Below are positions 40,942 to 49,509 of a DNA stretch of 63,698 bases, piece after piece. Below the pieces are notes generated by a model. The model searched no databases. It had not been told where the DNA came from and worked only from the letters and a program-made list of their open reading frames with translations. How positions within the stretch are numbered: the first letter of the stretch is position 1; every line of letters begins with the position of its first letter. The position numbers and the translations under genes were made by a program. Source of the DNA: a virus; IMG/VR virus record IMGVR_UViG_3300043783_000152, positions 1 through 63,698 of that record, one strand, 5' to 3'.

Positions 40942-40968
40942 GTAGTGCAGTTCACTACATCGTGTCAA
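40942..40968 (-). promoter_or_regulatory. TGTAGTG-type operator with TTGACA box, ahead of the RHH gene
   Basis: GTAGTG-cagtt-CACTAC (40942-40958, 6-bp arms; seventh pair is a mismatch) with TTGACA (40963-40968) four bases upstream on the minus strand. The -10 at 17-bp spacing (CTACGT) is poor, so promoter strength is doubtful. It overlaps the last codons of the GcrA gene. Confidence 0.5.
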
Positions 40969-41444
40969 GAGCCCCTGGCGGGGTGGAAGCATACCCGCGC
41001 GTGCGCCGCGCAGTAGGGAAGCGGGAATTGCCTGATGGCGCCGCAAAAGAAAAAGCCTTTCTCGCGCGGATCGCCAATTCCGAATTTACAGTGCTCGCGC
41101 CCAACCGTGAAGATCGTCTTGCGCTGCCGCTTGGGGATGTCCTGGTCGGCGGGATCGCCGGGCGGATTGCCTTGCGGGTTGACAACAGGTCCGTCGACAA
41201 TCCTGGAGATGCGCGAGCGGTTCTTGGCGCCGGGATTCTTGATGCGAGGATCCTTGCGAGGTAAGCGCCCGCCGAGGCGCGGATGGACCGCGCGCTGCAA
41301 ACCAAGACGATGCGCCTTGCCCATGATCGCGGAGCGGGTCAGCGCGAGCTCGGAGGCTATCTGGTAGAAAGACAGGCCGTCGGCGAAGAGCGACTTGAGT
41401 TTCTCGACGCGGTCGGGGGTCCAGTCGGAATTTACGGTTCCCAT
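40965..41444 (-). CDS. gcrA: GcrA-family cell-cycle regulator
   Basis: 159 residues. The N-terminal HTH (TPDRVEKLKSLFADGLSFYQ, then TRSAIMGKAHRLGLQ) and C-terminal zinc-like box (REHCKFGIGDP, FFFCGA, YCAAHARVCF) match GcrA over its full length. GcrA is known from Alphaproteobacteria and their phages, where it works with sigma70 at methylated GANTC promoters. Its presence suggests the phage re-times host transcription. It begins inside the end of the Tat-like gene, so the two are co-transcribed. Confidence 0.9.
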   Translation of the reverse strand: MGTVNSDWTPDRVEKLKSLFADGLSFYQIASELALTRSAIMGKAHRLGLQRAVHPRLGGRLPRKDPRIKNPGAKNRSRISRIVDGPVVNPQGNPPGDPADQDIPKRQRKTIFTVGREHCKFGIGDPREKGFFFCGAIRQFPLPYCAAHARVCFHPARGS

Positions 41445-41701
41445 CGTTCATCCAGATACTTAAGTTGCCACGCCCATAGGTCGGCACGATAGACTGAGAC
41501 GAAAAGCCGAGGCACGAAAGCCTGACGAGTCAAGGCGGTCAAATCACCATACAGGCTGTCGGTGAACTGCTTACGCGCCAGCGTATCCAAATCCTCCACC
41601 GTCGGTAGCGCTTTAATCGGCATGATCGACGTCGCCCGAACGATGGCGGGCGCCGCGACCAGCGAAATCAGGCCGGTAATGAGAGAGCGGCGATTCAACA
41701 T
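41432..41701 (-). CDS. Tat-leader-like protein carrying a fragment of the capsid N-terminus
   Basis: 89 residues. Residues 1-23 (LNRRSLITGLISLVAAPAIV) form a twin-Arg signal-like leader. Residues 49-73 (SLYGDLTALTRQAFVPRLFV and the next five residues) repeat the major capsid N-terminus (14-38) with about 18 of 25 positions identical. The chain then diverges. It may be a small virion or immunity factor, or a recombination relic. The Tat-like leader is unusual for a phage protein. The start overlaps the methyltransferase stop. Confidence 0.72.
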   Translation of the reverse strand: MLNRRSLITGLISLVAAPAIVRATSIMPIKALPTVEDLDTLARKQFTDSLYGDLTALTRQAFVPRLFVSVYRADLWAWQLKYLDERWEP

Positions 41702-42672
41702 TCCAGGTACGCCTTTATGAATTCGGCCGCGACTTGCGGGACGATGGCATTTCCGTAGGCGCGCAGCTTAGATGCTCGGCGCTGTACCCCATGAGCCAGC
41801 GGGAATGATCCGGGCTCAACTGGCCGCGCTTTTCCGTCTGTGCAGGGGAACCAGTCGCAATCGCTCCATGGACTTGATCCTCCAGACGCGCTCGACCGTC
41901 CTCCGCCCGCTTCGGCGAGCCGTGACCGCCGTTGTGCGTCACGCGGGGCGTCGCCCAACTCGCCAACTGATGCGCCTGTTCGCTCAGCGGCTTCCCGCGC
42001 GTCTGTTCCGCTCTCACCTGATGGAAGGCTTCCGAACCCTCGTTGCTCTTGAAGTCGCGGGCTGAAGGCGTTGCCCAAGTCGCCAGCAGGGCGAAGTCCT
42101 GCAGGTTCGATCCGTGGCGCGTCTCGCCCGCCGCCCGCTTCGCCTGGCCGCCCCTGTCCGCATCGTGAACCGTCGCGGTCGGCCACGAACCACAGTCGCT
42201 GCCGGATGTGCGGAGCGCCGACGCCCGCAGCGCAGAGATCGGCCGACCCAACGGCGTAATCCGCGCTTTCCAGGTCAGCTTGAACAAGGTCGAACCACGC
42301 AAGGCCGGGCTTCGATGCAACCTGCTCGCCAAGGATAATTGGAGGCTCGCACTGCTCGATGAGATGGAACCAGAAGGGCCAGAGGTGCCGCTCGTCAGCA
42401 AACCCGAGAGACTTGCCTGCCGCGGAGAAAGGCTGGCAAGGACAGCTTCCCGTCCAAACCGGGCGGTCAGTTGGCCAACCTGCTGTTGCAAGGGCGAGGG
42501 GCCATCCGCCAATGCCGGCGAAGAAATGGCACTGGGTGAAGGGGACGAGGTCGGCGGGTTTGACATCTTGGATCGGGCGCTCGTCGACGGTTCCAGGGGG
42601 AATTAATTGTTTCTGAATTAAATTTCGCAGCCATTGGGCGGCGTAGGGGTCAATCTCATTATAGAAATTCAT
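41695..42672 (-). CDS. C5 cytosine DNA methyltransferase
   Basis: 325 residues, overlapping the HNH stop (ATGA). Motif I FFAGIGGW (50-57), catalytic motif IV PCQPFS (78-83), an EQV variant of motif VI (116-118), QRLWFVADR (about 158-166) and the C-terminal LRAYGNAIVPQVAAEFI are in the proper order. Adds methyl groups to cytosine, as protection or as a marker. The target-recognition region (about 166-300) is Gly/Arg/Ala rich and shares its DNA with a second reading frame. Confidence 0.92.
   Translation of the reverse strand: MNFYNEIDPYAAQWLRNLIQKQLIPPGTVDERPIQDVKPADLVPFTQCHFFAGIGGWPLALATAGWPTDRPVWTGSCPCQPFSAAGKSLGFADERHLWPFWFHLIEQCEPPIILGEQVASKPGLAWFDLVQADLESADYAVGSADLCAAGVGAPHIRQRLWFVADRDGSRCGQGRPGEAGGGRDAPRIEPAGLRPAGDLGNAFSPRLQEQRGFGSLPSGESGTDAREAAERTGASVGELGDAPRDAQRRSRLAEAGGGRSSASGGSSPWSDCDWFPCTDGKARPVEPGSFPLAHGVQRRASKLRAYGNAIVPQVAAEFIKAYLEC
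41715..42566 (-). CDS. Overlapping reading frame fully inside the methyltransferase gene
   Basis: 283 residues, same strand, different frame, entirely within the methyltransferase gene. Instead of noise it shows SRGSTLFKLTWKARITPLG-like text, LRTSGSDCGSWPTATVHDAD, LLATWATPSARDFKSNEGSE, LASWATPRVTHNGGHGSP and SPDHSRWLMGYSAEHLSCAP, phrases recurring in phage-encoded proteins next to such methyltransferases. The WPT/WAT and RWLMG phrases look selected. Function unknown; translation not proven, and no ribosome binding site was established. Confidence 0.6.
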   Translation of the reverse strand: MSNPPTSSPSPSAISSPALADGPSPLQQQVGQLTARFGREAVLASLSPRQASLSGLLTSGTSGPSGSISSSSASLQLSLASRLHRSPALRGSTLFKLTWKARITPLGRPISALRASALRTSGSDCGSWPTATVHDADRGGQAKRAAGETRHGSNLQDFALLATWATPSARDFKSNEGSEAFHQVRAEQTRGKPLSEQAHQLASWATPRVTHNGGHGSPKRAEDGRARLEDQVHGAIATGSPAQTEKRGQLSPDHSRWLMGYSAEHLSCAPTEMPSSRKSRPNS

Positions 42673-43091
42673 CCCCCAACTCGCTTACGCTTTTTATATG
42701 CCTTTACATGCATTCGAACACAAGCACGACACGCTCTATAACCATTTACGGTTATCCGTAAATTAGTACCTTCCAAAGGGTGTCCTCGCATACAAACATC
42801 TTTTCTAGCGTTAATCCCCATTACAGTCTCACTGAGTCTGATGTTCTCGCGGTGAGTAATAAGTTGCAAGTGTTCTGGATTCACGCACGCTCGATTGTGG
42901 CATTTGTGATCTATCTCGCGATCAGCAGGTATCTCCCCGCAATACATACGGTAGGAAATACGATGTGCCTGTTCAGACCTGAAACCGTTCCACATGACTC
43001 CATAGCCGGTCGGTTGTCTATACGCGGTCCATTCCCAGCATCCGGCCAACGTGATTCTAAACTTAACTAAGAAGCGTTCTTCAAGTGACAT
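42669..43091 (-). CDS. HNH endonuclease ahead of the methyltransferase
   Basis: 140 residues. GCWEWTAYRQPTGYGVM, HRISYRMYCGEIPADREIDH and CHNRACVNPEHLQLITHREN give the HNH core with the C..C-VNP-x-H zinc/His pattern; CMRGHPLEGTNL and CRACVRMHVK follow. Free-standing homing-type enzyme. Transcribed from the promoter at 43098-43126 with almost no 5' leader, and coupled to the methyltransferase, which may also depend on it for transcription. Confidence 0.88.
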   Translation of the reverse strand: MSLEERFLVKFRITLAGCWEWTAYRQPTGYGVMWNGFRSEQAHRISYRMYCGEIPADREIDHKCHNRACVNPEHLQLITHRENIRLSETVMGINARKDVCMRGHPLEGTNLRITVNGYRACRACVRMHVKAYKKRKRVGG

Positions 43092-46984: not shown

Positions 46985-49282
46985 TCATGCCTGCCGTGTA
47001 GCCGTGTTGCGCTCTGCGCAAGCACCAGCGCTCTTGACATACCCCCTGTGGGGTACGCCCTCGATCCTGAACAGTTTGCATTCCCAGCCAAGTCGCCGCA
47101 TCGCGTACGCCAAGCGCTTTGCGGCAATGTCGCTTTGCCGATCGGCCGGTATCCCCAGGACGTCGCTCATCAACACGCGTGAAGGCACCCGCCATTCGTC
47201 GCCTTCGACCAGCTGGACCCGCTTGGCCCAAGTCGTCCGCTCCAGATTTTCCAGTTGATCGTCCCAAGGATCGTGCGCCCGTCTGCTTTCCTGGAGCGCC
47301 GCGGCAGACCCCCATAACGCTTCTGGGAGCACTAGGGACGCGCCCCGCTCCGCGAGCACGGCTTCGGCCCACAGCTGATCCCGATCGCGCCGTAGCGCCT
47401 CCAGATCGACGTGGCGGCACTCCACCGGCCAAAAGCGCCGATTCCCCGTTTGCGACTTCAGATAGGACTTATCGTTGGTTGTGCCAAAAAATATGCACCT
47501 CCTTGGGATGTCGACGCGCTTGCGCCCGTAAGCAGGCCTGGCCCTGTCGATGGTGCGAGAAGCAAACGCCTTGACCTTCTCGACTTCCGCATGGCCGTGG
47601 CCCGCGAGATCCGCAATTTCATACAACCACACGCCTTGGATCACTTCCTGTTGCTCTTTATCGCGCAGTCCTAAAATTAATTGGTCGCTGAAATTGTCGC
47701 TTCCCGCCAAGATTTCGATCGCTGAGCTTTTTCCTTTTCCCTCAACGCCCTCCAGGACGATGATCTGGTCGAATTTACATCCCGGTTGGAGTATGCGCCG
47801 GACCGCGGCTATCAGGCTCAGGCGCGACACGGCCCGATTGAAAGAATTCTCGTCCGCGCCGAGGTAGCGGCACAGCCACGTGTCCAGTCTGGGCGTACGA
47901 TCCCATTGTAATGATTCGAAATAATTCTTTATGGGGTGGTGCCGGTGCGCAATGCACTCTTGCACGGCTGCCTCGAACGTCGCGGTGGTGGGCGGATCGA
48001 ACCCGTATTCGTGCTCGATCAGAGAGCGCAGCGCAAAAACTGCGTTGTCGGTCAATTCGCCTGCCCACTGCCCGAGCGGCTGCCCCCCTATTCGCATACG
48101 GTCGTGAAATTCGTCGTCTTCCGCCGTGATTCCGAGGTGCCGCATGGCGATGCGCACGTTCCGGCAGGTCACCTTGACCTTCCCCCCGTCGGTCACGTCC
48201 GGGAAGTGGATGGCCGTCTCCCGGAAACTGGCGGGCAGTGCGGATGCGTGCCCGTTCATCCCGTGCGGCGTTTCGGCCCCCGCTCCGTTCAAGAGCGGGG
48301 GCCTCGTCTCATCGGGGTGTGCGGCACCGGCGTCAAATTGCATCACCTCCCTTCTGAAACCGTGCTCCCTTGCGATCGCAAACAGCGTCCCGAGCCCCAC
48401 GCCTCCCCCCGCTTTGAACGTCGTCCATTTGTACGCTGTCTCGGTCTGGCCGCGGTACTTGTCGCCCCCCTTGGAGCTCCATTGGTCCCACCGCGCCAGC
48501 GCGCCGCTGTCCCCCGTGGCGTGCAGCGCCATGCCGACGCGGATCCATGTGTCCATCTTGCAGTCGGCCGGGATGCGCGCCAGCGCGCGGTCGACCTCAG
48601 CCCAGTCAGGGGCATCTAGACAGCCTGCCAAGCGTGCCGTAAAGTTGTTGTGGCCCCCGGCCACGCCTTCCGGCCGGGATCCGGTTTCCCTGTTGTCCCC
48701 TCCTGGCGTGGCGCCTGTCCGGTTGCCACGCCCCTTTTTCTCCAGCGACCAGGCGACGAGCGCAGCCGGCGCGTCAGCAATTTGTAGCTGTCCTTCTGAC
48801 GTCCAGGGCGGCACATCCCAGCTGTAGACGTGCCCGCTGACGTGTGGCGAGGGCGGCAGGACGCAGTAGCCACCCGCGCCTCGCGTATCGAGCTTCCGAT
48901 CGGGATCCGACCGCGTGCCTCCCTGCCCCCGAAAGAAGACGTGCACGCCTCGCGCCGTCCGGCTGCGCGCGGTGGGAGGCAGGGGCCCAGCCACCGTGCG
49001 CAGCGCCAGAATGCCTTCCGCCGCGTCGCCATCCGCGACCAGCAGGCCGGACGGGCCCGTCGCGCAGCCGATGCCCGCGTTGGGCCACTTCGTCCAATAC
49101 GCGCGCACCGTCTCGACGTCGCACGTCGCGCCGGCCTTCCATTTTATCCTCGGGTGCTTGCCTGGTACGCGGCAGTCTGGGCGCCCGCAACCACACTTGC
49201 CGTCGAATCGAATCGAATGAATGGGAAAAATAAACCAGTTGAGGGCGGCGTACCTTAACGCGGCTTCTAGCATCGCGCTCAT
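46985..49282 (-). CDS. Primase-polymerase/helicase fusion (Prim-Pol plus VirE/VapE-like ATPase)
   Basis: 765 residues; the ATG at 49282 with AAGGGG 7 bp upstream is preferred to more distant in-frame starts. N-terminus AALRYAALNWFIFPIHSI, GKHPRIKWK and a VADGD acidic pair near residue 87 mark bifunctional primase-polymerase; PriCT-like text follows. Residues about 512-519 (GVEGKGKS) are a Walker A, then a VapE/VirE-type SF3-like ATPase with RCIFFGTTNDKSYLKSQTGN and NRRFWPVECRHVD. Primes and unwinds DNA for phage replication. Transcribed opposite to the replication operon at 49.5 kb. Confidence 0.88.
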   Translation of the reverse strand: MSAMLEAALRYAALNWFIFPIHSIRFDGKCGCGRPDCRVPGKHPRIKWKAGATCDVETVRAYWTKWPNAGIGCATGPSGLLVADGDAAEGILALRTVAGPLPPTARSRTARGVHVFFRGQGGTRSDPDRKLDTRGAGGYCVLPPSPHVSGHVYSWDVPPWTSEGQLQIADAPAALVAWSLEKKGRGNRTGATPGGDNRETGSRPEGVAGGHNNFTARLAGCLDAPDWAEVDRALARIPADCKMDTWIRVGMALHATGDSGALARWDQWSSKGGDKYRGQTETAYKWTTFKAGGGVGLGTLFAIAREHGFRREVMQFDAGAAHPDETRPPLLNGAGAETPHGMNGHASALPASFRETAIHFPDVTDGGKVKVTCRNVRIAMRHLGITAEDDEFHDRMRIGGQPLGQWAGELTDNAVFALRSLIEHEYGFDPPTTATFEAAVQECIAHRHHPIKNYFESLQWDRTPRLDTWLCRYLGADENSFNRAVSRLSLIAAVRRILQPGCKFDQIIVLEGVEGKGKSSAIEILAGSDNFSDQLILGLRDKEQQEVIQGVWLYEIADLAGHGHAEVEKVKAFASRTIDRARPAYGRKRVDIPRRCIFFGTTNDKSYLKSQTGNRRFWPVECRHVDLEALRRDRDQLWAEAVLAERGASLVLPEALWGSAAALQESRRAHDPWDDQLENLERTTWAKRVQLVEGDEWRVPSRVLMSDVLGIPADRQSDIAAKRLAYAMRRLGWECKLFRIEGVPHRGYVKSAGACAERNTATRQA

Positions 49283-49509
49283 TTTAACCCCTTGCATTTT
49301 GCCGCCGCCCGGCATAAAACAGGAGTCGGCGGCTTCGGTCGCTGGATTCACGTTCCTCCCCGAGACCACTTTACCCTGGCAAGGCTTCAACCCTTTGCCG
49401 GGGCTTTTCTTTTCCGCGCGCCTCCCAACGGGGCAGACGCCGGGCGGGGCGGCGAGTGTCCTCCCGGCCACGCCCGCGCGTCAAGCCCCAACTTTCACTA
49501 CAATTTCGC

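Follow-up and report, generated by a model that had tools for sequence, protein, structure and literature searches.

The window, which is the whole 63,698-nucleotide stretch of the IMG/VR virus record IMGVR_UViG_3300043783_000152, contains a C5 methyltransferase gene on its minus strand (frame A), inside which a second frame of the same strand, shifted by +1, stays open (frame B). The earlier note had reported this second frame as 852 bp long and lying wholly within the methyltransferase gene, and the re-examination agreed, with 283 aa encoded from an ATG of its own. The features of the locus are the following:

41695-42672, minus strand: frame A, C5 methyltransferase, proposed alpha subunit (325 aa)
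41715-42566, minus strand: frame B, nested +1 frame with its own ATG, proposed beta subunit (283 aa)
42564-42590, minus strand: start region of B, with the ATG at 42566-42564 and an upstream site reading CGCCC
42502-42534, minus strand: motif I of A (QCHFFAGIGGW), from alignment A1, aligned to M.HhaI
42424-42441, minus strand: motif IV of A, catalytic PCQPFS, from alignment A1, aligned to M.HhaI
42196-42210, minus strand: motif VIII region of A (HIRQR), from alignment A1, aligned to M.HhaI
41826-42194, minus strand: target-recognition region in frame B, placed by rates and by modules common to single-frame phage enzymes
41833-42156, minus strand: passenger stretch of A from motif VIII to motif X, with low pLDDT and a neutral rate
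41769-41825, minus strand: motif IX in frame B (GQLSPDHSRWLMGYSAEHL), for which canonical motif IX was the best profile match
41722-41766, minus strand: motif X in frame A (LRAYGNAIVPQVAAE), from alignment A1, with helix 312-324 confident in the model

Motif IV of A was invariant across alignment A1, save for F82, which was nearly invariant. Overall, motifs I-VIII and X were found in A, and motif IX was found in B and was absent from A. The order on the DNA (I-VIII, target domain, IX, X) was that of an ordinary C5 methyltransferase, with the target domain and motif IX one base over, and motif X of A adjoined motif IX of B directly downstream. A therefore lacked the canonical single-chain layout, in which the target domain and motif IX share the frame of motifs I-VIII and X, and the pair also departed from the M.AquI-type split, in which motifs IX and X both lie in the second chain, as motif X was in A. 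The description of A as carrying the normal methyltransferase motifs held for I, IV, VIII and X and was incomplete beyond them: with motif IX located in B, A falls short of a complete normal methylase.

Pfam PF00145 matched A only over residues 74-168. In PHROGs, A was assigned to phrog_363 (E 1.4e-80) and B to phrog_1008 (E 5e-27) and phrog_31772 (E 6e-18), each of the three being labelled DNA methyltransferase; the last two were also found for all B relatives tested (149/149), among which no convincing Pfam family was detected. Searches of the B sequence against PDB and Pfam likewise gave no convincing match. For A, AF2 modelled most of residues 1-172 and the final helix 312-324 with confidence; residues 186-264 had pLDDT values below 50 and were predicted to be unstructured, and the model matched M.HaeIII (E 4.5e-8) and M.HhaI (E 1.5e-7). 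B modelled alone gave a poor AF2 structure (mean pLDDT 64) with no significant Foldseek match in PDB; such a model might be expected if B folds only with its partner, and it was not counted as evidence.

Directly upstream of the methylase, an HNH endonuclease gene (42669-43091, minus strand; Pfam HNH_3, phrog_826) was present, with its stop codon and the start of the methylase sharing the sequence ATGA (42672-42669), which may couple their translation. Two genes downstream of the methylase, a GcrA homologue was encoded (40965-41444, minus strand; Pfam PF07750, E 1.1e-29). GcrA of Caulobacter is a cell-cycle regulator that responds to DNA methylation. The window also carried a phage replication primase-helicase of 828 aa (46985-49471, minus strand) with Prim-Pol, PriCT-2 and VapE-like parts.

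Conservation and constraint of the two frames

Taken by itself, the open B frame of the window was only weakly unusual, since an equally long open +1 frame arose in 15 of 500 synonymous shuffles of A. Among non-redundant loci, B was open in 63 of 63, with 199 stops observed in the +1 frame vs 402 expected, and the +2 frame of the same loci showed no stop deficit (1186 vs 998 expected). Loci fetched through A alone (L004-L083 and L093-L172, n = 160) all kept B over at least 85% of the B profile (160/160); they comprised many Proteobacteria as well as records labelled Planctomycetota, Verrucomicrobiota, Acidobacteria, Nitrospira and Leptospiraceae. When these 160 were taken together with the other loci, the register was +1 and B was kept in 252/252, and homologues of A with a B frame broken by stops were sought among them without any being found.

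A low-GC group of 80 viral loci (GC 0.29-0.55) was retrieved with a distant low-GC B sequence, which served as search bait only. Each of the 80 had an A-type ORF, the register being that of the window, and 17 of 10,000 shuffles attained the observed open length in these relatives. An open B frame arising by chance was rejected for the family, while chance could still account for the window taken alone. In four loci (L105, L186, L210 and L211) A was interrupted and B intact, through sequencing errors or real decay; they were excluded as evidence because sequencing errors may be involved. In canonical C5 methylases (L407-L486), the +1 open frames were longer than in synonymous shuffles (167 vs 109 codons).

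Since B is shifted by +1, the third positions of A are the second positions of B, and the first positions of A are the third positions of B. The comparison of rates in each frame across homologues, which the earlier note had proposed as a check, was run on pairwise nucleotide alignments, replacing a first estimate on a gappy global alignment. It covered 104 high-GC and 29 low-GC pairs, which were disjoint, though not fully independent, and 35 canonical C5-methylase pairs as a control, replacing a first single-frame control of 5 pairs. Segment boundaries were set by motif patterns, and each change was classed by its effect in both frames, giving dNN/dSN for A and dNN/dNS for B.

Up to motif IV, the third positions of A were the fastest in the high-GC group (0.347 vs 0.098 for first positions). 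From motif VIII to motif X this order was reversed, with 0.302 for first and 0.152 for third positions in the 104 high-GC pairs, and 0.335 and 0.141, respectively, in the 29 low-GC pairs. Over the same stretch, the A ratio was 0.96 (0.89-1.03) in the high-GC and 1.19 (1.00-1.39) in the low-GC group, and the B ratio was 0.40 (0.34-0.46) and 0.34 (0.28-0.43), respectively: between motifs VIII and X, A was neutral and B constrained in both independent groups. Before motif IV, the A ratio was 0.18 and 0.19 (high-GC and low-GC), and that of B was 0.98 (high-GC) and 0.78 (0.60-0.99; low-GC). In the target stretch of the control, the ratios were 0.51 for A and 0.63 for B, with the third position fastest, and around motif X the B ratio was 0.98 in the control vs 0.54 and 0.41 in the nested groups. 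As the control reached B ratios of 0.63-0.98 without a second gene, only values well below that range are informative. The 27 codons preceding GN overlap motif IX of B, and the four-fold sites of A within them diverged by 0.076 and 0.062 in the two nested groups vs 0.567 in the control.

In the catalytic core, the level of constraint in the control was similar to that of the nested genes, with little extra constraint from B, and the canonical C5 methylases (L407-L486) had reduced four-fold divergence there. The conservation of B over motifs IV-VIII was dropped as evidence, since the same echo is seen in single-frame enzymes and the canonical control had similarly reduced four-fold rates in that region. 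Accordingly, the recurring phrases quoted earlier from the second frame were all present, but those over motifs IV-VIII partly echo the catalytic residues of A, as seen from single-frame genes, whose +1 frame is also matched by the N-terminal half of the B profile. The independent signal for B is located after motif VIII.

Content and initiation of frame B

The C-terminus of B in the window is GQLSPDHSRWLMGY, and low-GC relatives have QLNPLFVEEMMGFP there; canonical motif IX was the best match of this C-terminus in every profile comparison, with modest E values (0.0054, 0.018 and 0.1). The target-recognition modules of frame B were WPTATVHD, WATPSARD and SWATP. Counterparts were found in phage enzymes encoded by a single ORF, including Mycobacterium phage Moonbeam gp69 (PCQPFS, HQRER, LLPTPSAADGGGG, LLSTPQARDYKG, LHPAFPEWMMGWP, IGNGVVPQQ), in which LHPAFPEWMMGWP is the in-frame counterpart of the window motif IX, and Gordonia phage JKSyngboy gp4 (PCQPFS, HRRER, LSPVFVEWMMGLP, LGNGVVP). 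These two share the target-region modules, motif IX and the motif order with the nested genes, and differ in that a single frame and a single chain contain every motif. At the profile level, the part of B from about 162-170 to 278 matched the ORF of the catalytic domain in six single-frame loci, and it matched a separate downstream ORF in Phanphagia (gp65/gp66), Camperdownii (gp76/gp75) and others. The single-frame relatives provide the strongest evidence for equating the C-terminal part of B with this methylase family's target region and motif IX.

Residue 1 of B was an ATG in 163 of 230 distinct high-GC relatives. Among the 164 high-GC sequences with a start codon, 77% had AGGAG or GGAG 20 to 5 bases upstream of the B start, with a consensus AGGAG at -13 to -9; the same motifs preceded 2.8% of the other ATGs of the same genes, and GGAGG a further 0.8%. 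The Arg codon within the AGGAG site was AGG in 49% of cases vs 9% overall. In the window and in the relative L005, the ATG was present and the AGGAG site at the B start was absent.

The proposal that both frames are under selection, one gene making two proteins, is supported by the substitution patterns, by the conserved internal ribosome-binding site of most high-GC relatives, and by loci with A never being found without B. The variant in which the second frame limits the evolution of A's target domain was borne out as far as selection in B is concerned and had to be recast otherwise, as the target domain appears to be B itself, with A evolving neutrally over it.

In GenBank, both frames were annotated in some records (e.g. 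Escherichia phage K1ind2 and Paenibacillus phage Genki), and many records named a single frame of the pair. In Komagataeibacter phage phiKX2 (L366:1473-3120), the long A frame (549 codons) and the full B frame were both unannotated, the only annotated features of this stretch being small unrelated ORFs and, in frame B, a hypothetical protein of 609 bases.

A candidate two-subunit enzyme and the alternatives

The constraint pattern, the placement of the motifs, the fixed register and the homology of the C-terminal part of B to single-frame enzymes point to a two-subunit cytosine-C5 DNA methyltransferase encoded in two overlapping frames, a reading to which we give a probability of roughly 0.85. 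The alpha subunit (frame A) would provide the cofactor-binding and catalytic domain with motifs I-VIII as well as the C-terminal motif X helix, and its unstructured linker from VIII to X would have little function of its own and be mainly kept open. The beta subunit (frame B) would be begun at the internal ATG and would consist of a loosely constrained N-terminal tail followed by the target-recognition region and motif IX. In this phage, B would be translated and the two chains would assemble into one active enzyme.

Programmed frameshifting, from A to B after motif VIII and back before motif X, would instead yield a single chain, which fits both the motif order on the DNA and the existence of single-frame sister enzymes. 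It would require two shifts in one gene and would not need A to be open through the target region nor B to be open upstream, and both are; moreover, the conserved AGGAG and ATG indicate a separate initiation of B. Frameshifting is the best placed of the alternatives and nevertheless improbable. Slightly less credit is given to B being a real protein other than a methyltransferase subunit, such as an inhibitor or an unrelated overprinted protein. The lack of a Pfam family and of a structural match would suit such a protein, but both motif IX and a folded target domain are missing from A and are provided by B where they would be expected, and the same sequences form part of the enzyme in single-frame and split relatives. 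An untranslated B, open by chance, base composition or codon use and echoing A in its phrases, is the least probable reading, since the shuffles of the window, the echo of A's catalytic motifs in the N-terminal half and the somewhat long +1 frames of canonical genes, which all lean towards it, are outweighed by the retention of B in every locus, the rarity of equally open shuffles in low-GC relatives, and the neutrality of A exactly where B is constrained, a pattern absent in the canonical control.

Overlapping genes are usually viewed as two functions in one stretch; in the two-subunit reading, two frames share one enzyme, and constraint passes from A to B and back to A along the DNA. If this reading is true, many annotated phage C5 methylases miss a subunit, frame A recoded or synthesised alone is expected to be inactive, and predictions of specificity should be based on frame B.

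Known systems and spread of the nested arrangement

The small chain of M.EcoHK31I is coded inside the gene of the large chain, in another frame. The two polypeptides of this enzyme (YGGCCR) are a large one with motifs I-VIII and X and a smaller one with motif IX (PMC3404938), and because this layout has been reported, the window gene is of a known kind. The likeness, drawn by layout alone, lies in motif IX being in the second chain, motifs I-VIII and X in the large one, and the second chain in a different frame nested within the first gene; the predicted target domain of M.EcoHK31I is in its large chain (PMC3404938), whereas here it is coded and constrained in B. M.AquI (CYCGRG) likewise consists of two chains, the division falling near the variable region, with motifs IX and X in the second (PMC3404938), unlike the present case, in which A retains motif X and the whole of B is nested. 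In the ShiLan element, too, a phage methylase gene codes for a second protein out of frame, but this is an HNH endonuclease brought in by homing insertion (PMC11855218), whereas B is a proposed part of the methylase without insertion. No overlapping beta subunit of phage methylases was found in the open-licence literature, in which only mentions of EcoHK31I were met. These sources do not cover how far the family extends, its persistence in several phyla, its probably single origin or the assignment of the target domain to beta.

In the catalytic-domain tree, the nested genes formed one side of a branch with a support of only 80/51, and the single-frame and split actinophage enzymes formed the sister group (support 100/99). 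The nested arrangement appears ancient and widespread, with annotations mostly showing one protein, and a single origin of this layout would be the simplest reading, with modest support. With A as a neutral passenger over the target domain, this domain would be free to change in B. A large, ancient phage and prophage family of apparently single origin, in which the enzyme is permanently divided, specificity evolving in B and catalysis being preserved in A, is accordingly conceivable as a wider picture, to which we give somewhat less than even odds. Since single-frame sister enzymes exist, the nested family offers a clean test case for the origin of same-strand overlaps.

Within the actinophage group, the tree indicated that split pairs arose repeatedly. 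In four mycobacteriophage loci (L368, L372, L400 and L401), the methylase was encoded as two partly overlapping ORFs, with the target region and motifs IX and X in the second; the Phanphagia pair gp65/gp66 (L368) looks more AquI-like than the nested genes, and the four splits apparently represent several events within one clade.
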